Positions 35,437 to 46,186 of a DNA stretch of 64,000 bases are shown here, piece by piece (positions within the stretch are counted from its first letter, which is position 1; each line of letters starts with the position of its first letter). Source of the stretch: Pseudarthrobacter sp. GA104 (GTDB taxonomy: Bacteria > Actinomycetota > Actinomycetes > Actinomycetales > Micrococcaceae); the NCBI RefSeq assembly GCF_009741265.1, contig NZ_WOWL01000001.1, positions 4,402,001 to 4,466,000 of the forward strand, written 5' to 3'. The notes under the pieces are model-generated. The model had not been told where the DNA came from, made no database searches, and saw nothing but the letters and a program-made list of their open reading frames with translations. The translations under genes were made by a program, and so were the position numbers.

Positions 35437-38400
35437 TTAGGCAAGGTTGCGGACCTTCTTCCCAGAACCCCATCCGTTCTTGACGATCTCGACCTTGCCC
35501 GAGGTCGCCAGGCGCTCGAAGAGCGTGTTGTTGGAGGAACCTGACGGGAGGTCAAACTCTACCCCCGGTCCACTGGTGAGCGTGTTGTAAGGGGAGCCGA
35601 GAAGCGCCAGCGACTCGATCAAGGACTCAGGAGTCATGTCTCGGGCACGCACCAAATGAGACAGGATCAGCTCCGGATTCTGGGTGGCTCGGGCGATACG
35701 CTGAACCTCCGCGAGGGGAAGCCAGATTTTCATCTCGCGTGCGTACTCACCCGCGGCTCGGAGCGCCCCAGCGTTGTCGTCGACCACGTACATGGCGAGT
35801 TCATTTACGACCTTCTCGCGAACACTGTGGGGTACCTGCGGGCTCGCCAGCAGGTCGGCGACGAATCCGGATACCAGGGCAGGAGTCAGGATCGATTCCA
35901 TGTTCTTGGATACCGCGAAGGCCTCCGAGACCGACTTCCATCCAGCACGGGCAAAGTGCGCGAACGTGTCCGCTGTATCTGGGATCAAACCGGCTTCCAG
36001 AGCCAGCGCAAGAAGATTGTCCCCAGCCGGAACTAAGGCTGTTGCATCGACTTCGGCCGGTAGATTCAGGTTAACGGCGAGGTCGACCCGAGTCGCTGCT
36101 CGGAGATACGAGGAGGCGTTCAGGATCTGAATCGCGAGACTGTTTCTGGTGTCGGTATCGGTTTCATCGACAGACTGTAGTTCGATCGGCGTGTTTCCGT
36201 CGGGTGCCAGGAAACGGGCGAGGTGCTGATCGACTTGATTCGCCTGAACGTATGCCCAGACGTTCTCGGCTGTTGGCACCGCACGTGCCGCATTGATAAC
36301 TGTTGGCCATGTCGCTGAAGGCACAGTCGTGATGACGTGAAGCGCCGCGTCGGGGGAGCTGTCCATGATGACATCGCGGAGTTGGTCTTCCGTCCAGGCT
36401 TCGTGTTGCTCGGTGATGACGTCCCGGAGGACAGACTCTGTTCCCACCACGTACTCGACCGGATCGTCGCCCCGAGCCGCGGCCAGGTACTCGTCCACGT
36501 TCTCATTGCAGTACAGCCAGACGTCCACCTTCTTCCTCACCTCGTCGAGAGTAGGATCGCCTTCGATGCCGAGCGCGATTCTCAGATTCGACGTGGTGAG
36601 CTGGTACATCTGTTCGGCGACGATCTTCTCGCGCAGTGGTTCGGCCAGATTGTTCAAGTCGGGGACGAGGATCTCGGCCGCCTTGACGAACGACAGGACG
36701 CGCTCGGTGCGCTCGGGGGACTGCCTCTGGTTGACCGCCGTAAGGCGAGGTAGTGCGGAGGTGAGCAGTGCCACGGATTTTTCCCCGTGGTCGTAAGCTT
36801 CAGCGTCCAGCCCGTTGAGAAGCGCGGCGTCTAGCAGACTGATCCTGGTCGCCTCGTCGGGGATCCCGCTGTGGCTTGCGATGTAGTCGATCAGTCCGGG
36901 CCACGGATGGAGTGCGAGCAGTGCGACGAGCTGTTCTCGCGGGGCATCGGCCGCATTAAGGAACGCATCGAGGAACGTCTCCACGTCACGGCTGTGGTCA
37001 GCCACGATAAACGCGACGACCTTCTTCGCTTCGGACAAGCTATTGGTCAAGAGGTGGCTGACGACATGGATGTTGAGGGAACTGACTGAACTCGTGAAGT
37101 CAGATGGAACCTGCTCGAGTAGGTTGCTTAAGGCGTTCCTGGTCGTGAACTGGTGGTCGACGTACATCTGGTTCGGTTGAACACTGTGATTGTAGAAGAA
37201 CGCGACGTCGACCCCGATGAAGCTGCCATAGAAGGTCGCAGAGTACTCTGCGTAATTGCGGTTGATGAAGCCTCGACGGACGAGATCCCGCGCCAGCTCC
37301 GACTTCAGCACCCTTGTGATCTCGTCGCCGAATTTTGGTTCACCTTTCGGGAACCGCTCGTACTTGGCCAAATCGCTGAAGTCAGCGCCACGCAAGAAGG
37401 CGATGTCGCGATCATACTGTTGCCGCTGTCTGGCCAACTCGCTGGTGCTCGGATCGCGCCAGCGGTCGGCTTTCAGGCTCTCTGGGAAAAGGATCTCGAC
37501 ACGCGTTCGGTCGAGATGCACCATGGGAGGGCCGTAGTTGTTTTGTGTGGCAACGAAGCTCACGGATCCTGCCGCAGCGACATGCTTCCAGAAAGGAACA
37601 GTTGGCACATGGTCGGGTCCAAAGTTTGTACCGCCGACTGAGAATAGGTTGTAGGGGTACCCCGAATTGTTTGGCAGCGTATCTCTGATTGCGATGAGTT
37701 GACGCCCCAAGATTCTTGCCGTTTCCTCTTGCGTCCGCTGTAGTTCCTCTGTGTTTACTACCTCACGGCCTTTTTGCTGCAAGAGCTCGATTGATGCTCG
37801 GACAAGATCCCGATGGCGTTGCTCGAGCTTGTCCAATGAGCTTGCCCGCTGTGAGATGGCCTCGAAGTCCGCGAGGTGGAAGTTCTTGTAGACCACCAGC
37901 GCAAACAGATCGTCGGCAGTCATACCAGGCGCAGGATTCTTCACCCAGAGCAGGTGCTCCGCGAACACGACGAACTCGTTGCAGATGTTCTTCAGTAAGC
38001 GCATGTCGGTCGTATGGCGCGCTACCAAATCCAACAGTGGACGCGTCACGGTATCCGGACCCAGCTTCAGGTCATTCAACGCGTCGACCAGGTGATCACG
38101 TGCGTTGCGGTGCGAGATGAACGGCACCATAGGGACCACGAGTTCGAAGAACTTGGTCCGGTTCGCTCGCTCTACTGCAGCAGCGGCCATATCGACGGAA
38201 GGCACGACTGCTTCAGCAGAGCCGGCGTCTCCGCTCTCAGAGGTCTCCGTTCTCTTCTCTCGTGTCTCGGGGTCCGTACCTAGCTGTTCGAAGAGGCTGT
38301 CTTTGATGGCGTAGATGAACCGGAGCGGCTGGCTCTTGCCTTTCCAGTGTGCAGACGAGTTGATGAGCGTGTTGAGTTCTCTAAGGGAATCGAAGATCTG

Positions 38401-39153
38401 TGGATCGTCGAAGCGATCAAGGTCCTCGAAAATAACGTATTCGGGTTCGACTGCGTCGAAGAAGGCCACGATCTCGTCCAAGAACCCGTCGAAGTAGGTG
38501 CTTGGCTTCTCGCCGAGAGTGATGGTGGTCCCGGCTGTCGTGACCTGCGAGACGATCCGATCGCCGATAATCCATCGCCCGCCCGTGACGACAAGCACGA
38601 CCAGAACGAAGAATAGGACACCCAAGGCGGTCTTCACACTTGGATCCGCGGTCCCGCCGAACCACGAGTCTCCCGGCCGGAAACCGATGAGCCAGGAAAG
38701 CGCCAGCCCGATGGAGGTCAAGCAAAGAGCCTGGAGGAAAGCCCTCCGCGGGGTCAGGGGAATGGTACGGGCGAACCTGGAACGACGGAGCTTCCCAGGT
38801 TTGGCCCGGTACACCAGCTGCTTGACGAGCTCCTTCTGGATCCTGTTTGTCAGGTCTTCGTCGTCCTCATCCGGGCCCAGAGTGTTGATGCTGATGCGTA
38901 GAGTCTGGTTCTTGTGTTTGGATTCGAACTGGTCGAGCACGCTGGACTTTCCGGCACCGTAACGACCGGTAAGGGCTATGTTCCTGTTCCTTGTATCCTC
39001 TATCGCGTTTTCGAGATGTCGCACGTAACCGCTGTGTTGCGAATCCAAAAATAAGGGCGCGAGAGAACGCAAGGTGACCTGGGCTCTGGCACTCGCTTCT
39101 GGTGCATTTTCGGCCTCGATCGAGCTGTCTTCAGATTCGGTAGTTTCCGTCAC
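35437..39153 (-). CDS. YobI-family P-loop NTPase, membrane-anchored
   Basis: About 1238 residues from GTG 39153 (GTG 39201 is an in-frame alternative). The order is: TLRSLAPLFLD; Walker A GRYGAGKSS near residue 65; two transmembrane helices at roughly 140-160 and 175-195 (ALCLTSIGLALSWLIGF and ALGVLFFVLVVLVV); Walker B YVIFEDLDRFDD near 240; then a long helical C-terminal region of ~800 residues. This is the architecture of YobI-type and KAP-like NTPases. A CATACT box lies 6 bases before GTG 39153. Such proteins are often in defence islands; a sensing role at the membrane is inferred. Confidence 0.8.
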   Translation of the reverse strand: MTETTESEDSSIEAENAPEASARAQVTLRSLAPLFLDSQHSGYVRHLENAIEDTRNRNIALTGRYGAGKSSVLDQFESKHKNQTLRISINTLGPDEDDEDLTNRIQKELVKQLVYRAKPGKLRRSRFARTIPLTPRRAFLQALCLTSIGLALSWLIGFRPGDSWFGGTADPSVKTALGVLFFVLVVLVVTGGRWIIGDRIVSQVTTAGTTITLGEKPSTYFDGFLDEIVAFFDAVEPEYVIFEDLDRFDDPQIFDSLRELNTLINSSAHWKGKSQPLRFIYAIKDSLFEQLGTDPETREKRTETSESGDAGSAEAVVPSVDMAAAAVERANRTKFFELVVPMVPFISHRNARDHLVDALNDLKLGPDTVTRPLLDLVARHTTDMRLLKNICNEFVVFAEHLLWVKNPAPGMTADDLFALVVYKNFHLADFEAISQRASSLDKLEQRHRDLVRASIELLQQKGREVVNTEELQRTQEETARILGRQLIAIRDTLPNNSGYPYNLFSVGGTNFGPDHVPTVPFWKHVAAAGSVSFVATQNNYGPPMVHLDRTRVEILFPESLKADRWRDPSTSELARQRQQYDRDIAFLRGADFSDLAKYERFPKGEPKFGDEITRVLKSELARDLVRRGFINRNYAEYSATFYGSFIGVDVAFFYNHSVQPNQMYVDHQFTTRNALSNLLEQVPSDFTSSVSSLNIHVVSHLLTNSLSEAKKVVAFIVADHSRDVETFLDAFLNAADAPREQLVALLALHPWPGLIDYIASHSGIPDEATRISLLDAALLNGLDAEAYDHGEKSVALLTSALPRLTAVNQRQSPERTERVLSFVKAAEILVPDLNNLAEPLREKIVAEQMYQLTTSNLRIALGIEGDPTLDEVRKKVDVWLYCNENVDEYLAAARGDDPVEYVVGTESVLRDVITEQHEAWTEDQLRDVIMDSSPDAALHVITTVPSATWPTVINAARAVPTAENVWAYVQANQVDQHLARFLAPDGNTPIELQSVDETDTDTRNSLAIQILNASSYLRAATRVDLAVNLNLPAEVDATALVPAGDNLLALALEAGLIPDTADTFAHFARAGWKSVSEAFAVSKNMESILTPALVSGFVADLLASPQVPHSVREKVVNELAMYVVDDNAGALRAAGEYAREMKIWLPLAEVQRIARATQNPELILSHLVRARDMTPESLIESLALLGSPYNTLTSGPGVEFDLPSGSSNNTLFERLATSGKVEIVKNGWGSGKKVRNLA

Positions 39154-40286
39154 ACTGACAGTATGTCCGGATGCCCCGACACTTTCTCTTCTGACGGCCA
39201 CGGATTCGGTGTGCTGCCGAAAATTTCAATTACTGGACCGCCAACCAGATATGACTCGGCCGACGCTGTCTAGCGGCCTTCGGGGCCTGGCGATCTTCGC
39301 ATGCCGAATCCCCGGAGCGCTGCGACCCATTCAGGCGACATGTCTCTTGCTTGACGCAGTGGCGTGAACGGCAGGGGAGCAGCGCCTGATCAGATCGGGG
39401 AGTGGCCCCCGTCGCCAGAAACCGGACCGCGCCGGGGTTCTGCCACCAGGGTCAGAGGCTAGGGTTCGACTTCATGAAACCAGAGCACCAGGCACGCGTG
39501 TCGTGGGCATGAGGCGACTCATCTCCTACTTCAACGTTTGTAAGCTGATCTCCTATCAGATGATGCCAAGTAGGGAGCGTCGTCGTCCTTTGTTGTTGCC
39601 GGGAGAACGAGCAAATCGTCCACTCAGCTCATCCGCGAAGACCTAGAAAGCGCACCTGACCTGCGGAAACACCTATGCAAGGCGACCCACCCCCTGTTTG
39701 AACAATCACCGGTCAGTAATGTGCGGAGACCCATATGGGTCGTCTTTCGGCCGCAGCAAAGGTATCGCCGCATTTCAGAGGCACATTTGCCTACCCATCT
39801 GACAACGTTGGTAAACCGCTCATATCGCGAGAATCTCCACCAAATGAAGGTGCTCGGGACCTAGCAAACAAGGGGCAAGTATGCAGGGTGACGACGACTG
39901 AGCTAACTCAAGCCAAACCGAAACGGCGGCTTGGTGGATCCGGTCAGAGGGCCCCTCGCGGCCAGCAGGCATCCCTCTGCATGCACAGCGCCTGTCAATC
40001 CGAGCGTGGCGTAGCCGCCCCTTACGGTGTGGCTACGAGAGCCCTCGCGGTCGGTGCACGAGAGTGCCCTGAGTCGCTGGGCGTTCTGCGCAATGATCAA
40101 GCGGTGAATTAGTTCGACAGGGGCCTGTGCCGCGGGTGCGAGGGCGAGGATCAGCTTGCGCCGAATATGGTGGAGACCAGTCGTGCGGGTTCTCTTCCTG
40201 CTCAATGATCTGGTGCAGCGGGTTGCCGTGGCAGGTCGGCCGGCAGCCTTGCTGCGTGCGATGCCAGGCCCGCTACGCCGAAGAGT
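39154..40286. other. Gene-poor junction region
   Basis: About 1.1 kb with no convincing gene between the YobI-type gene and nhaA. It contains the left copy of the boundary repeat (39665-39705). Frames of about 100 codons on both strands between 39735 and 40205 are Arg/Gly-rich with poor starts and are not called. This is probably the scar where two mobile segments meet. Confidence 0.5.
39665..39705 (+). repeat. Left copy of element-boundary repeat
   Basis: Contains GGAAACAC, a 10-base variable spacer, then the 17-base core CGACCCACCCCCTGTTT (39683-39699) and a shared AACA. The same arrangement with identical spacing recurs at 48201-48240. Probably the left attachment or terminal site of the 8.5-kb segment. 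Confidence 0.7.
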
Positions 40287-41618
40287 TCATGCAGCCGAAT
40301 GCGAAGACTCCCCGGGGCCCGGGCCTGCCGCGCTGGAAGGCCGGGACGAGTTGGCGTGTCGGTAGTGCCGGTTCCTGGGCAGCAGGACCATAGCGGCCAG
40401 CAGTGAGGCGATGAGGGACGCCGCCAGGATCCCTGTCGTCGCCTGGTCACCATAGTCGCCGCCGTGGCCGAAGCTGAGTTCCGCGACCAGCAGGGAAACG
40501 GTGAAGCCGATCCCGCCGAGGAGCGAAACGCCGAAAATGTCGATCCACTTGATGGAGCGGTCCAGTCTTGCCCTGGTGGCCTTGGTAAGGAGCCAGACCG
40601 TTCCGAGAATTCCGACCGGTTTGCCGACGACCAAGGCGATGATGATCCCGAGGGTCACCGGGTTCGCGAACAGGGATCCGATCCCGTCCCGGCCGCCCAC
40701 CTGTACACCGGCGGAAAAGAAGGCAAACACCGGCACGGCGATACCAGCTGAAACGGGGCGGAGCCGGTGCTCCAGGATCTCGGCCAATCCCCCACCGGGC
40801 TGCGGTCCGCCCTTGGAGTGAGCGAGCGGAACAGCGAAGCCCAGCATGACTCCTGCAACCGTCGCGTGAATCCCTGAATTGTGGACCAGTACCCAGACGG
40901 CAGCGCCCAGGGGAAGCAGGATCAGCCAGGCCGCCGTCCGTGTACTGAAGAACCGCCGGTACCGGTGTGCAAGAAGGGTGTAGGAACCTAAGGCGAGCAG
41001 CACCAGCAGCAGCGGTTCCGGACGAATGTCCTGCGAATAGAAGAACGCGATGATGCCAATGGCGATCAGGTCATCAACCACGGCGAGTGTCAGGAGGAAA
41101 ATCCGCAACGCGCCCGGCAGGTGCGAACCGATCAGGGCCAGAACAGCGACGGCGAAGGCGATGTCCGTCGCTGTGGGGATCGCCCATCCCCTCAGCGTTT
41201 CGGGACTGGCCAGGTTGACCACGGAATAGATGATGGCGGGAACAGCGACCCCACCGGCGGCAGCGGCAACCGGCACGACCGACTTGCTGGGCTCGCGCAG
41301 ATCCCCGATCAGGAACTCCCGCTTAAGTTCAAGGCCGACGAGGAAGAAGAAGATGGCCAGCAGACCGTCCGACGCCCACTCGCCCAGGCTGAGTTCCAGA
41401 TGCCATGGCCCGTATCCGACGCGGATATCCCTCAGCTGGAAGTAACCGGCGGAGAGCGGGGAGTTTGCCCAAATCAGTGCGATGATCGCAGCTGCCACGA
41501 GCAGCGCCCCGCCGACAGTCTCTTTGCGCAGGATGGAACCGATGCGCAGCAACTCGGAAGAACTTTCCCCTCCGAGCAGGAAGAAGCGGGGGCGGGAGTC
41601 CGGTGAGTTCTGGTCCAT
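40287..41618 (-). CDS. nhaA: Na+/H+ antiporter NhaA
   Basis: 443 residues from ATG 41618, chosen because GAGG lies upstream at the right distance. It has about twelve membrane helices and NhaA motifs: [34 protein letters not shown], the ion-binding pair in [25 protein letters not shown] and [16 protein letters not shown]. NhaA expels Na+ in exchange for H+ at the cytoplasmic membrane and supports growth at high salt and pH. It is the last gene of a leftward run headed by a KhtT-like protein and DUF1538. The C-terminal tail is hydrophilic. Confidence 0.93.
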
Positions 41619-41692
41619 TCGGTGCGTCCTCGAGTAGTCCCGACAAGACAATGTCCCTCGCCGACGTAGTGGTCAGCGCAGCCGGGCGAATG

Positions 41693-42082
41693 TCACGTCA
41701 GCTCCTCCATGAGCCGGGCGAGAATGTCATTCATGGCGAGCAGCCCGACGAGCTGATTGCCTTCCACCACGACGAGCCGGCTGAGGTGATAGCGGCTCAT
41801 CAGGGCCGCTGCCTGGCGGACGGACAGGTCCTCGTTGACAGTGATCGCGGGAATCGTGGCGGCGTCATAGACGTTCAGGAGGTCCACATCCCCCTCCTGC
41901 GCAACGACGGTGTCCAGGAGTTCTCTGTAGCTGAGCAGGCCGTAGGCGTCGTGGGCGTGCTGCCGCTCCACTACCAGGCTCTTCACCTGGCGCTCCTTCA
42001 TCATGGACAGCGCCTCCCGCAGCGTGCTGTAGGGGGAGATCGTGACGACCTCGGGGACCATGACATCTTTGACGGTGAGCAT
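41693..42082 (-). CDS. CBS-domain pair protein
   Basis: 129 residues forming two CBS motifs: VKDVMVPEVVTISPYSTLRE with SLVVERQ, and PAITVNEDLSVRQAAALMSR with LVVVEGNQLVGLLAMNDIL. CBS pairs bind adenine nucleotides and often control transporters. The gene lies between nhaA (75 bases) and the PII-like gene (32 bases) on the same strand, so it probably senses energy or nucleotide state for the transporters beside it. That link is inferred. Confidence 0.88.
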   Translation of the reverse strand: MLTVKDVMVPEVVTISPYSTLREALSMMKERQVKSLVVERQHAHDAYGLLSYRELLDTVVAQEGDVDLLNVYDAATIPAITVNEDLSVRQAAALMSRYHLSRLVVVEGNQLVGLLAMNDILARLMEELT

Positions 42083-42113
42083 CTTTCCTCCTCGTAACGT
42101 TTCCGGGCCTGCT

Positions 42114-42464
42114 TCAGGAGCCCTCGCGGCGCAGATGCTCCTCGAACCTGACCACCTGCCGCATATCGATCCCGGTCAGGTGCTCGATCGGAATCGCGAA
42201 GGCCAGGCCCCGGGATTCCGTTCCTTGAACCAATATCGAGTGCAGTTCCTTCAGGATGGGGGCAGTCAGGTGAGCGCCGACGACCATCAGCAGCACGGAC
42301 TGCGTCCCTTCGAAGGTGAGCCCGAAAAACGTCTTCCTGGCCTCACCCCCGATGCCCTTGCCCGGCAAAATGGTCACACCCGTGGCACCGGCCCGCTGGG
42401 CGTGTTCAATCACCTTGTCTTCAAGCTCGTCCGGGGCAATCACGATGACTGCTGTGAATTTCAT
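42114..42464 (-). CDS. PII-like signalling protein
   Basis: 116 residues from ATG 42464, with AGGAGG upstream. The layout is beta-alpha-beta, repeated: KFTAVIVIAPDELEDKVIEH, AGATGVTILPGKGIGG, the T-loop region, SVLLMVVGAHLTAPILKELH, and GLAFAIPIEHLTG. This is the GlnB-like fold without the uridylylation tyrosine pattern of classical PII. PII-like proteins bind nucleotides and control transporters. Its start overlaps the end of the DUF1538 gene by 4 bases, which points to DUF1538 as its target. That regulation is inferred. Confidence 0.8.
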   Translation of the reverse strand: MKFTAVIVIAPDELEDKVIEHAQRAGATGVTILPGKGIGGEARKTFFGLTFEGTQSVLLMVVGAHLTAPILKELHSILVQGTESRGLAFAIPIEHLTGIDMRQVVRFEEHLRREGS

Positions 42465-43945
42465 GCCGGTTGCCTCCTCAGACGGGGAAATCTCTCCATC
42501 ACCATGGCATACACCATGACGGAAATGACGGGGAAGATCGAGGCATACGCGATCAGCCCAAACCCGTCGATCAGGGCGTCGCGTCCTTCGACCGCCGTTG
42601 CCAGGCCGATGCCAAGGGCTGTTACCAGCGGCACCGTGACCTCCGACGTCGTCACCCCGCCCAGGTCGAAGGCCAGGGCGATGATGTACTTCGGGGCGAA
42701 GAACACCAGCACGATGGCGACGGCGTAGGCGGCCATGATGAAGTAGTGGAACGGCCCTCCCACCAGAATGCGGTAGACGCCAAAACCGATCCCGAGGGCG
42801 ACACCAACGGCGACAATGACCCGGACCGCGAACGCGCTGATCTTGCCCGGAGATGCATCCTGCGCCTGTTCTCCGATGGCCACCAGGGCAGGTTCGGCCA
42901 TGGTGACCGCGAAGCCGATGAGCAGCGCGAAGAGCAGGATCAGGGCCGGGACTCCCTGTGCGATGAGTTGCTCCGCCATCAGGGTCCCGAGCGGGAACAG
43001 CCCGAGCTTGAGCCCCACGACAAAGGCATACAGTCCCACCAGGACCATGACGAACCCGATGACGACCCGCAACGGGTGGGGCAGTTTGCGCCGGAGCGCA
43101 ACCCATTGGAAGAAGAGGACAACGCCCACGATCGGCAGCACTTCCCGGATCATTGAGGCGAGGCCGAGGATCATGCCGACCACCCAATCCGTGGGGGCCT
43201 CCCCGGCGTCGGTGACCGGCGGAGCTGGCCCGGCATCGCCGAAGGTGTAGACCCAGATGCCGTAGAGCTGCACGCCGATCATGGGCACCATCACGCACAG
43301 TGCCACCAGGCCAAAGCCGTCCGCGAGCAGGCTGCGTCCCCTGATGGAATTCGCCAATCCAAGGCCGATCGCCGCGATCAGCGGGACACTGACGATGTTG
43401 GTGGTGACCCCGCCCGAATCGTAGGCGAGACCAATGATCTCCGCGGGGGCCACATAACTGAGCCCCAGCACCACGACATAGCCAGCGATCAGCAGTTTGT
43501 AGACAGCCCAGCCCCGCAGGACACGCAGTACGCCCAAGATCAAGACCAGACCCACCGACACAGCGATGACAAAGCGCAGCACCAGCGCATTGATCCGACC
43601 ATCGCTGACCAGCTGGGCCTGCTCCGCGACAGCGATCACCGCCGGCTCCGCGACGGAGGCAGCGAAGCCAATGGCAAACCCAAATGGCAGCAACAACCCC
43701 AGCGCCCCGCTCCGGACAAACTGATTAGCCAGGTTCTTCCCTACCGGGAAGATACTCAGATCCAGGCCATACAGGAACAGGGCAATGCCAACAGCCACAA
43801 TCAGGAGCCCCGCCACCAGCTCCAGGGGATCATCGGGCATGGAGCGGAACACCAGCAGTTGGAACAGAACAACCACGATAACGATGGGCAGAAGGTTCCT
43901 GAGCGCCTTAAGGAATTCGCGGGCAAGTCGGCTGAGGTGCTCCAT
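42461..43945 (-). CDS. DUF1538 membrane protein, internally duplicated
   Basis: 494 residues from ATG 43945, with a GAGAGGA ribosome site. About twelve membrane helices form two homologous halves, each with LLPIVIVVVLFQ or VLPIVGVVLFFQ, FxLGLxLFPLG, FAxGFAxxxAEPAxxAxxEQAQ and the loop DSGGVTTN / DLGGVTTS. DUF1538 proteins are predicted transporters of unknown substrate. The inverted or tandem repeat is typical of secondary transporters. It is the second gene of the run, coupled to a PII-like protein. Confidence 0.85.
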   Translation of the reverse strand: MEHLSRLAREFLKALRNLLPIVIVVVLFQLLVFRSMPDDPLELVAGLLIVAVGIALFLYGLDLSIFPVGKNLANQFVRSGALGLLLPFGFAIGFAASVAEPAVIAVAEQAQLVSDGRINALVLRFVIAVSVGLVLILGVLRVLRGWAVYKLLIAGYVVVLGLSYVAPAEIIGLAYDSGGVTTNIVSVPLIAAIGLGLANSIRGRSLLADGFGLVALCVMVPMIGVQLYGIWVYTFGDAGPAPPVTDAGEAPTDWVVGMILGLASMIREVLPIVGVVLFFQWVALRRKLPHPLRVVIGFVMVLVGLYAFVVGLKLGLFPLGTLMAEQLIAQGVPALILLFALLIGFAVTMAEPALVAIGEQAQDASPGKISAFAVRVIVAVGVALGIGFGVYRILVGGPFHYFIMAAYAVAIVLVFFAPKYIIALAFDLGGVTTSEVTVPLVTALGIGLATAVEGRDALIDGFGLIAYASIFPVISVMVYAMVMERFPRLRRQPA

Positions 43946-44065
43946 CGGGTCCTCTCCCGGAATGATCCTGCGAGTACCTGGCTTTTCAGTCTGCCGGGCC
44001 AGCCCAGTCGCGTCTGCCAACCGAGGCTCCGGTGTGAATCGACGACACGCGCGGGTCCACGATCG

Positions 44066-44338
44066 TCATCGCCCGCTCCCTGCGAGCCGGGCAACCCGAC
44101 GTTCGAGTTCGGCGATCCGATCGGTGATCGGCTGACTGTGCAGGAGCTCGGCGACCTGATCGGCCTCGTCCTCCTCAAGCACGATCCTTGCCACTACCCG
44201 ATCCGGCTCCGCCGAGTCGTAAACGAAGATTTCGCATCTGCCGGGACGCGCGACGAGGATGCGGAATTGCTGGCCGTCGCGGGTCTGGCAGTCGTGCAGC
44301 ACGCCGGAGCCGGGCACCGTGGAGTGGGTGGTCTCCAT
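44066..44338 (-). CDS. KhtT-like cation antiporter regulatory domain protein
   Basis: 90 residues from ATG 44338, with GGAG 7 bases upstream. METTHSTVPGSGVLHDCQTR and RCEIFVYDSAEPDRVVARIV match the N-terminal domain of regulatory subunits of K+/H+ antiporters (KhtT type). The C-terminal RCK/TrkA-C domain is missing and replaced by a short coiled coil. It heads the leftward operon (120 bases before DUF1538) and is divergent from the histidine kinase. A regulatory role on one of the transporters is likely. Confidence 0.65.
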   Translation of the reverse strand: METTHSTVPGSGVLHDCQTRDGQQFRILVARPGRCEIFVYDSAEPDRVVARIVLEEDEADQVAELLHSQPITDRIAELERRVARLAGSGR

Positions 44339-44508
44339 TGGGCACTCCGTTCCGTCGGTTCTAGGGGTAAATCCAGTCTCCCTTTGCGGTCAGGGAGGTG
44401 CCATTGGGCCTGACACCCATTTCCGGTGCGTCGCGCGCCAGGGATTCCGCCGTCCGTGGGTGCCAGCCCTCATGGACAAAGGACGCGGGCCGCGCAAGGC
44501 TAGTACGC

Positions 44509-45528
44509 ATGCGGACTCCGCTCGAAACCAGGGCCGCCGGAACGGCACGCGGCGTACCTCCGAAAGGACCGGCACAGTTGCTGTTCTGGCGATTGTTCAT
44601 CATCAACGGATTGCTTTTCGCGATCGGAACGCTCGTGTTGGCACTCTCGCCGGCGACGGTGTCCTCGCCCGTACTGCTCACCGAGGTACCGGTCCTCCTC
44701 ATTGGTCTGGCTCTCATCCTCGCCGCGAACGCAGCCCTGGTGCGGGCCAGCCTCGCGCCGCTCGACGCCTTGACGACCGTGATGCGCCGGGTGGGCCTGC
44801 TGCGGCGCGGTGGCGACCGGGCGATCGAAGCCGGCAACGGCGACCTTGGGCATCTCATCCGCACCTTCAATGAGATGCTTGACCGGCTGGAGGCGGAGAA
44901 CAGCGCGAGCAGCGCCCTCGCGCTGGCTGCGCAGGAGGGGGAACGTCAGCGGATCTCGCGGGAACTGCACGACCAGATCGGCCAGAGCCTGACCGTTGCT
45001 CTCCTCAGTCTCAAACGGGTTGTCGATCGATCTCCTGACGATCTCCGCGAGGAGAGCCTCGTCGCGCAGGAGGCGGTCCGCGCGAGCCTGGAGGAGGTCC
45101 GCCAGGTGGCGCAGCGTCTGCGCCCGGGCGTGCTCGCGGACCTCGGCCTGCGAAGCGCGCTGAATTCGCTGGGCTCGGAGTTCTCCCGCTCGAGCGGGAT
45201 CCCAGTGACCTGGGAGGTCGATGACCCCCTCCCCGAGCTCAGCGGGGACGTCGAGCTCGTGCTTTACCGCATCGCGCAGGAGGCGCTCACCAATGTCGCC
45301 CGGCACGCGCACGCAACACGAGTCGATTTCGCGCTCACCTCGACGACGAAGGGGCTGACCCTGCGGATTCTCGACGACGGGCAGGGCGGTGACCTCCGCG
45401 AAGGCGCGGGCATCCGCGGGATGCGCGAACGGGCCCTGCTCATCGGTGCCGAGCTGACGATCGCCGCACGGGCGAGCGAGGGGACCGACGTTCGCCTCGT
45501 CGTTCCCGGAGTCGAGACGGGGAGCTGA
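44509..45528 (+). CDS. Sensor histidine kinase, NarL-partner type
   Basis: 339 residues from ATG 44509 (the frame is open earlier but without plausible starts). Two membrane helices near residues 25-75 surround a short external loop with no large sensor domain. Then a HAMP-like linker, the HisKA_3 phosphorylation helix RISRELHDQIGQSLT, and a HATPase domain with EALTNVARHAHAT and LDDGQGGD. The response regulator gene begins 4 bases after its stop. It may sense membrane or ion stress and control the divergent transporter run, an inference from position. Confidence 0.88.
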   Translation: MRTPLETRAAGTARGVPPKGPAQLLFWRLFIINGLLFAIGTLVLALSPATVSSPVLLTEVPVLLIGLALILAANAALVRASLAPLDALTTVMRRVGLLRRGGDRAIEAGNGDLGHLIRTFNEMLDRLEAENSASSALALAAQEGERQRISRELHDQIGQSLTVALLSLKRVVDRSPDDLREESLVAQEAVRASLEEVRQVAQRLRPGVLADLGLRSALNSLGSEFSRSSGIPVTWEVDDPLPELSGDVELVLYRIAQEALTNVARHAHATRVDFALTSTTKGLTLRILDDGQGGDLREGAGIRGMRERALLIGAELTIAARASEGTDVRLVVPGVETGS

Positions 45529-45532
45529 TCCG

Positions 45533-46186
45533 ATGGGCGAACCCACGCGCATCCTGCTCGCTGACGACCACGCCCTGGTCCGCCGCGGCCTTCGCATGAT
45601 CCTCGACGCGGAACCCGACCTCACCGTCGTGGCCGAGGCCGCCGACGGCACAGAGGCCGTCGCCGCCGCGACCGCGGGCGGGGTGGACCTCGCTGTTCTC
45701 GACATCGCCATGCCACAGATGACCGGCATCCAGGCGGCACGGCAGATAGCGCGGAGCGCACCCGACGTGCGGATCCTCATCCTGTCGATGTACGACAACG
45801 AGCAGTACTTCTTCGAGGCCCTGCGCGCCGGGGCCTCGGGCTATGTGCTCAAATCGGTCGCCGACCGCGACCTCATCGAGGCGTGCCGTGCAGCGATGCG
45901 CGGGGAGTCGTTCCTCTACCCCGGCGCGGTCACCGCGCTCATCCGCGACTACCTCGAGCGCGACCGCCGTGGCGACCGGATGCCGGACAGTATCCTCACG
46001 CCCCGCGAGGAGCAGATTACGAAGCTCATCGCAGAGGGGAACTCCGCCAAGGAGATCGCCGACATCCTCAGGATCAGCGTGAAGACCGTCGATCGCCACC
46101 GGGCCAACGTCCTGCAGAAGCTGGGGTTGCGCGACCGGCTGGACCTCACACGGTTCGCCATCCGCACCGGGCTCATCGAGCCATAA
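45533..46186 (+). CDS. NarL/FixJ-type response regulator
   Basis: 217 residues. The receiver has the acidic pair in [13 protein letters not shown], phosphoacceptor D57 in [10 protein letters not shown], and lysine in [10 protein letters not shown]. The C-terminal LuxR-type HTH is [20 protein letters not shown] followed by [16 protein letters not shown]. It lies 4 bases after the histidine kinase gene, so the two form a two-component system. Targets are not visible in the sequence. Confidence 0.9.

Follow-up and report, generated by a model that had tools for sequence, protein, structure and literature searches.

A DUF1538 gene of Pseudarthrobacter coupled to a PII-like gene: evidence for a probable PII-controlled cation/proton antiporter

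Introduction

PII proteins gate the transport of ammonium (AmtB-GlnK) and of bicarbonate (SbtA-SbtB). In both systems the membrane transporter, a member of a family other than DUF1538, is encoded beside its own PII-family protein. Here we report on a locus of Pseudarthrobacter sp. GA104 in which the gene of a DUF1538 protein is coupled to that of a PII-like protein. It lies within a stretch of 64,000 nucleotides (contig NZ_WOWL01000001.1, positions 4,402,001 to 4,466,000, forward strand), called the window below, and all coordinates are given relative to this window. A first-pass annotation of the window had presented DUF1538 as a transporter-like family of unknown substrate, and had suggested that it is a PII-gated transporter of ions or bicarbonate. 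We consider it fairly probable that the locus encodes an antiporter of monovalent cations and protons, under the control of a PII-like protein whose ligand is unconventional.

The unknown substrate did not survive a look at the literature. UmpAB of Halomonas zhaodongensis, a pair of DUF1538 proteins, is characterised in sections of PMC5484666 as a Na+(Li+,K+)/H+ antiporter, which made E. coli KNabc tolerant of Na+, Li+ and alkaline pH. DUF1538 is also found, according to part of PMC13255231, among the genes informative of growth pH in a machine-learning study. The terms PII and P-II are absent from the main text of the UmpAB paper, and among the open-licence PMC papers naming DUF1538, a corpus that leaves subscription reviews of PII-like proteins outside its scope, none connects the two (the lone “PII” string, in PMC7221264, belongs to a sequence motif). 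Wider listings of open-licence PMC titles and abstracts contained no paper on PII control of DUF1538 either. PII control of DUF1538 antiporters was thus not found described in the open-licence PMC literature.

Results

A PII-like gene adjoins DUF1538 in nearly all loci

In the window, the DUF1538 gene (42461..43945, minus strand, 494 amino acids) is followed by the gene of a PII-like protein (42114..42464, minus strand, 116 amino acids, Pfam PF00543 (P-II)). The four-base overlap between the two that had been noted initially was confirmed by reading the sequence: at 42464-42461, on the minus strand, the stop codon of DUF1538 and the start codon of the PII-like gene are joined in an ATGA.

A scan of named genomes produced 587 confirmed stretches, of which the best 80 loci were scored, a sample that leans to closer relatives; the counts of adjacency, overlaps, fusions and CBS genes given below for named loci all refer to these best 80. 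In 77 of them a PII domain was encoded directly downstream of DUF1538 and in the same orientation; they comprise 35 loci with a two-repeat DUF1538 gene, 32 with a split DUF1538, and 10 in which everything is fused into one open reading frame (ORF). Two of the three exceptions (L071 and L083) are found on contigs that stop at the DUF1538 gene, and the third is L126, to which we return below. Of the 35 unfused two-repeat loci, 28 had an overlap of precisely 4 bases, overlap lengths being dependent on the start-codon rule that we set. Because the PII gene is directly downstream so constantly, and so often with this 4-base overlap, the adjacency exceeds what chance would produce. The 10 fused loci all belong to Campylobacterota (L075, L077, L079, L081, L082, L084, L086, L087, L090 and L091), and encode single-chain DUF1538-DUF1538-PII proteins.

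Other samples gave the same picture. In a phylum sample of 396 genomes, PII was found beside DUF1538 in 19 of the 20 genomes scoring above the cut-off, and the locus of genome G210 terminates at the DUF1538 gene. Adjacency was seen in all 6 DUF1538-bearing genomes among the Pseudarthrobacter genome and 98 relatives, as well as in the 7 plasmid records opened, out of 9 with DUF1538.

The pairing also held in the opposite direction. DUF1538 is present in 90 of 274 gammaproteobacterial genomes (the class of Halomonas campaniensis), and a profile of the PII subtype (A5) matched 92 of the 274 with at least 35 bits, a threshold chosen after a gap between 35.2 and 29.8 bits was seen, the matches being counted by hand. 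These were all 90 genomes with DUF1538, scored per genome rather than by adjacency (several drafts have DUF1538 and PII on separate contigs), and 2 of the 184 genomes without it (G594 and G687). Since the profile was trained on PII genes adjoining DUF1538, its matches are partly circular, and the control is given by the 2 of 184. All remaining profile matches were below 30 bits, in genomes both with and without DUF1538, and in the four low-scoring cases that were opened (G541, G640, G691 and G731) PII adjoined DUF1538. As for the two matched genomes without DUF1538, the contig of G594 terminates 135 bases upstream of PII, and G687 presents a weak match of 25 residues (13.4 bits) to the DUF1538 C-terminus upstream of PII, possibly a remnant or a misassembly.

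One explanation of this linkage is that the PII-like protein never contacts the transporter: it would signal to another target, for instance to transcription, and be retained in the operon through co-expression. Linkage within an operon is by itself no proof of contact, and UmpA and UmpB together sufficed for activity in E. coli KNabc (sections of PMC5484666), so that PII must be dispensable for activity and is at most needed for control. Such an explanation sits poorly with the 10 natural DUF1538-PII fusions, and with a PII subtype that occurs in just 2 of 184 genomes lacking DUF1538, and we regard it as unlikely. The first-pass annotation had named neighbourhood statistics of DUF1538 with PII-like genes as a test of its proposal, and adjacency, genome counts and fusions all turned out strongly in favour of the pairing. 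Near-obligate in both directions and accompanied by natural fusions, the pairing makes a functional coupling of the PII-like and DUF1538 proteins very likely, and a direct contact between them likely, as judged from gene content.

Some clusters depart from the simple two-gene arrangement. Further PII-like genes were present upstream of DUF1538 in L053, L055 and L058, hence PII flanks both sides in some clusters, and in the Clostridia loci L044-L048 the partner consists of two PII units in tandem (about 220 amino acids). In the distant loci L027-L031 of the phylum sample, one DUF1538 gene and one PII gene were seen within the short stretch examined, a layout which suggests a homodimeric transporter.

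The DUF1538 protein is of an UmpA-UmpB fusion type

The DUF1538 protein of the window has two repeats, PF07556 being matched twice (419 bits, curated cut-off 22.6). It scored 406 bits with the UmpA model NF041627 (cut-off 490) and 353 bits with the UmpB model NF041628 (cut-off 500), both figures being whole-protein scores spread over two stretches. In a quick tree, the N-terminal half clustered with split UmpA proteins and the C-terminal half with split UmpB proteins, so the protein compares with UmpAB, of the same Pfam family, as one fused chain with an UmpA-type and an UmpB-type half. Because its scores are under the NCBI equivalog cut-offs, we file it, from its sequence, as an UmpA-UmpB fusion-type DUF1538 protein, and not as UmpAB itself. 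A pair close to the models was found in G771, from the family of H. campaniensis (UmpA 448 bits for a cut-off of 490, UmpB 497 bits for 500), and it likewise has a PII gene and then a CBS gene beside it. Nearby in the same genome (locus L175) is a second, fused DUF1538-PII-CBS set, and the same layout is seen in G822 (L176); in these two loci the split and fused sets stand side by side, with an extra PII at the end.

Since Na+(Li+,K+)/H+ antiport has been published for UmpAB, an exchange of monovalent cations for protons is likelier here than bicarbonate transport, and the window protein is a probable monovalent cation/proton antiporter. Four acidic residues, E100, D176, E351 and D427, were invariant across 42 aligned rows; they are distributed over both halves and would be suited to cation binding. 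It could be argued that the fused subgroup moves another substrate, such as bicarbonate or an organic anion, and is gated by PII as SbtA is by SbtB. This subgroup does diverge from UmpAB, the PII-like SbtB partners a bicarbonate transporter, and SbtA-SbtB structures are among the structural matches of a fused relative (see next section). We nevertheless find it rather unlikely, as the sole characterised DUF1538 proteins that we found are Na+(Li+,K+)/H+ antiporters (sections of PMC5484666), the invariant acids are kept in both DUF1538 halves, and the local neighbours NhaA and KhtT-N are of kinds tied to cation/proton antiport. Of the two options left by the first-pass annotation, the ion side, as cation/proton exchange, was thus made likelier by UmpAB, and nothing that we found favoured bicarbonate.

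The predicted model of the window protein had a predicted local distance difference test (pLDDT) value of 81.3 and a predicted template modelling (pTM) score of 0.82. No significant match to it was present in the PDB (best Foldseek E 0.017; best VIA Z 6.4, with a soluble helical domain). Partial matches to elevator-type carriers were given by VIA, with Pho90 (Z 5.0, 127 residues, 4.2 Å) and EAAT1 (Z 4.5, 111 residues, 4.2 Å); this resemblance of the model is only a lead, as the scores may reflect a mere common arrangement.

For this genome, the nearest named ones among the matches listed are from Arthrobacter. The Arthrobacter-type DUF1538 sequences were placed in the quick tree among gammaproteobacterial fused forms, and 4 of 60 other genomes of the genus contain DUF1538. 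Tree placement and sparse occurrence would fit a gain by transfer.

The PII-like protein is devoid of the canonical B-loop motif

With 30.2 bits, the PII-like protein exceeded the PF00543 cut-off of 25; P-II was also matched, with an E value of 0.01 or better, by 29 of 30 aligned relatives. The genome, of 4.78 Mb, has one canonical PII elsewhere, which scored 97 bits, against 29.6 bits for the PII-like protein. Evidence for the fold came from the natural fusion L081, whose predicted model had a pLDDT of 87.1 and a pTM of 0.77. Its residues 526-633 matched structures of PII and SbtB, with a best E of 1.3e-3 and a probability of 1.00 in Foldseek, and with VIA Z values up to 12.7 and 1.6 Å over 80 residues, SbtA-SbtB structures being among the matches; the PII fold is thereby shown for this fused relative, not for the window protein. 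The structure-search lists of L081 were filled by PII structures and are uninformative on its transporter part.

In canonical GlnB/GlnK proteins, GDG[KR] is the ATP-binding motif of the B-loop, and Tyr51 of the T-loop is the site of uridylylation. The GDG[KR] motif was present in 0 of 79 separate PII-like proteins, that of the window included. GEGR occurs in 2 of the 10 fusions, at a position that, as we read it, is not in register with the canonical loop. The window protein contains no tyrosine at all, hence no counterpart of Tyr51. With neither GDG[KR] nor a tyrosine, classic sensing of ATP and 2-oxoglutarate and uridylylation are not indicated by the sequence. Compared with SbtA-SbtB and AmtB-GlnK, the DUF1538 system therefore shares the pairing of a transporter gene with a PII gene and the PII fold, as seen in L081, and differs by the absence of GDG[KR], by a CBS partner in one branch, and by its single-chain fusions. 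We also observed that a T-loop motif, [KR]TF[FL]G, is present in a slightly longer form in 55 of the 79 separate proteins, and in none of the 10 fused PII parts.

A CBS pair is the third member in one branch

Downstream of the PII-like gene lies the gene of a stand-alone CBS pair (41693..42082, minus strand, 129 amino acids, PF00571 twice). Where an unfused named locus left over 450 bases of room, a CBS ORF followed PII in 63 of 64 cases; in the single miss, L124, it ends 810 bases on, beyond our limit of 700 bases. A universal CBS partner was rejected, as no CBS pair was found in the distant loci L013-L048 (with a flank of at most 1.5 kb for L013-L041), in the divergent L171-L174 and L180, or after PII in any of the 10 fusions. 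From gene order, DUF1538-PII-CBS is the conserved unit in the proteobacterial/Arthrobacter-type branch only. The CBS pair of the window resembles the NCBIfam high-hydrostatic-pressure regulator HhpR (1.5e-10), far under the cut-off.

A PII-like protein together with a stand-alone CBS pair recalls another set tied to ion homeostasis. Bacillus DarA (PstA) has a PII-like fold, and DarB (CbpB) is a CBS pair. Both bind cyclic di-AMP (c-di-AMP), according to part of PMC7900238, and the proteins studied here could be receptors of the same kind, linking the antiporter to the control of K+ by c-di-AMP. The Pseudarthrobacter genome does encode one protein with a DAC domain. However, no DAC match was obtained in any of the 274 gammaproteobacterial genomes, the 90 with DUF1538 included, with a search that was positive in 11 of 14 control genomes. 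As a general ligand, c-di-AMP was rejected on this ground, and we hold the receptor explanation to be highly unlikely. Whereas DarA and DarB are c-di-AMP receptors, the DUF1538 set is encoded as a single module and is common where genomes have no DAC domain.

The neighbours NhaA and KhtT-N are local additions

The first-pass annotation had described five leftward genes, and this was borne out, gene kinds included: from 44338 to 40287, all on the minus strand, they encode a KhtT-N-like protein, DUF1538, the PII-like protein, the CBS pair and NhaA. The grouping of these neighbours with the transporter and the PII-like protein was upheld for the CBS pair, a core partner in its branch, and not for NhaA and KhtT-N, which are found in few loci and were rejected as members of the conserved unit.

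NhaA (40287..41651, minus strand) is a Na+/H+ antiporter by TIGR00773 (319 bits, cut-off 254); its start may be the in-frame ATG at 41618, as an alternative to 41651. Among the loci examined, NhaA matches were limited to the Pseudarthrobacter genome, G013, L049, L050 and L081, and in the last two the gene is on the opposite strand, 1-3.5 kb away. The stand-alone KhtT-N-like protein (44066..44338, minus strand, 90 amino acids) gave no Pfam match. With phmmer it matched KhtT, of the KhtTU K+/H+ antiporter, in structure 7agw_A (E 5.8e-7, residues 6-66), an alignment confined to the N-domain, which agrees with the initial reading of this small protein as a KhtT N-domain. Unlike KhtT, it has no RCK_C (TrkA_C) domain, for which 90 amino acids are too short. 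Its gene was limited, among the loci examined, to the Pseudarthrobacter genome, G013, G040 and L049; the first three of these are 3 of the 6 DUF1538-bearing genomes among this genome and its relatives. By their distribution, NhaA and KhtT-N are local additions, and KhtT-N is lineage-specific.

Proposed mechanism

In the mechanism that we propose, the 494-residue DUF1538 protein would swap Na+ (or K+, or Li+) for H+, a substrate assigned by analogy with the published UmpAB. The PII-like protein would dock on its cytoplasmic face and, once docked, raise or lower the activity of the antiporter in response to an ion or a small-molecule ligand. The CBS pair may act as a second sensor on the DUF1538-PII complex. 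In Pseudarthrobacter, the module together with NhaA and the KhtT-N-like protein would constitute a cluster for Na+/K+/pH homeostasis. The near-obligate pairing, the conserved order, the natural fusions, the PII fold in a relative and the branch-wide conservation of the CBS pair are observations; the substrate, the direct docking, the gating, the role of the CBS pair and the ligand are what we infer.

Several results weigh against this mechanism. L126 has no PII within the ~670 bases in view. The window DUF1538 protein stays under both NCBI equivalog cut-offs (490 for UmpA, 500 for UmpB), and with the L175 pair it shares only 43% (UmpA) and 44% (UmpB) identity. UmpA and UmpB were active in E. 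coli by themselves, as said above, the GDG[KR] motif is missing from all separate PII-like proteins, and the linker of the L081 fusion was modelled with low confidence. The absence of the CBS pair from the distant branches makes us slightly less confident.

If the mechanism is true, many bacteria, whether marine, halophilic or from soil, would have their Na+/K+ and pH homeostasis under PII control as well, and UmpAB would have been characterised in the absence of the protein that probably regulates it. For structural work, the natural fusions provide both partners in a single chain. More tentatively, DUF1538 antiporters at large might be cation/proton exchangers under PII control, a widespread class in which the proteobacterial branch would use two dedicated sensors, a CBS pair and a PII-like protein without the standard nucleotide loop, the PII fold reading an ion, pH or a new signal instead of ATP and 2-oxoglutarate. 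We find this generalisation possible, and rather doubtful as a whole.

Gene starts and flanking genes

The start of the DUF1538 gene was taken at the ATG at 43945, preceded by a purine-rich stretch; in the ORF list it begins upstream, at 44020. Immediately upstream of the cluster and divergent from it (44398-46186, plus strand) are the genes of a histidine kinase (HAMP, HisKA_3) and a LuxR-type response regulator, a possible transcriptional controller of the cluster. On the other side, an ORF of 1254 amino acids (35437-39201, minus strand) has an early nucleotide-binding-like motif, GRYGAGKSS, and apparent membrane helices. Judged by eye from its sequence, it looks like a KAP-type P-loop NTPase.

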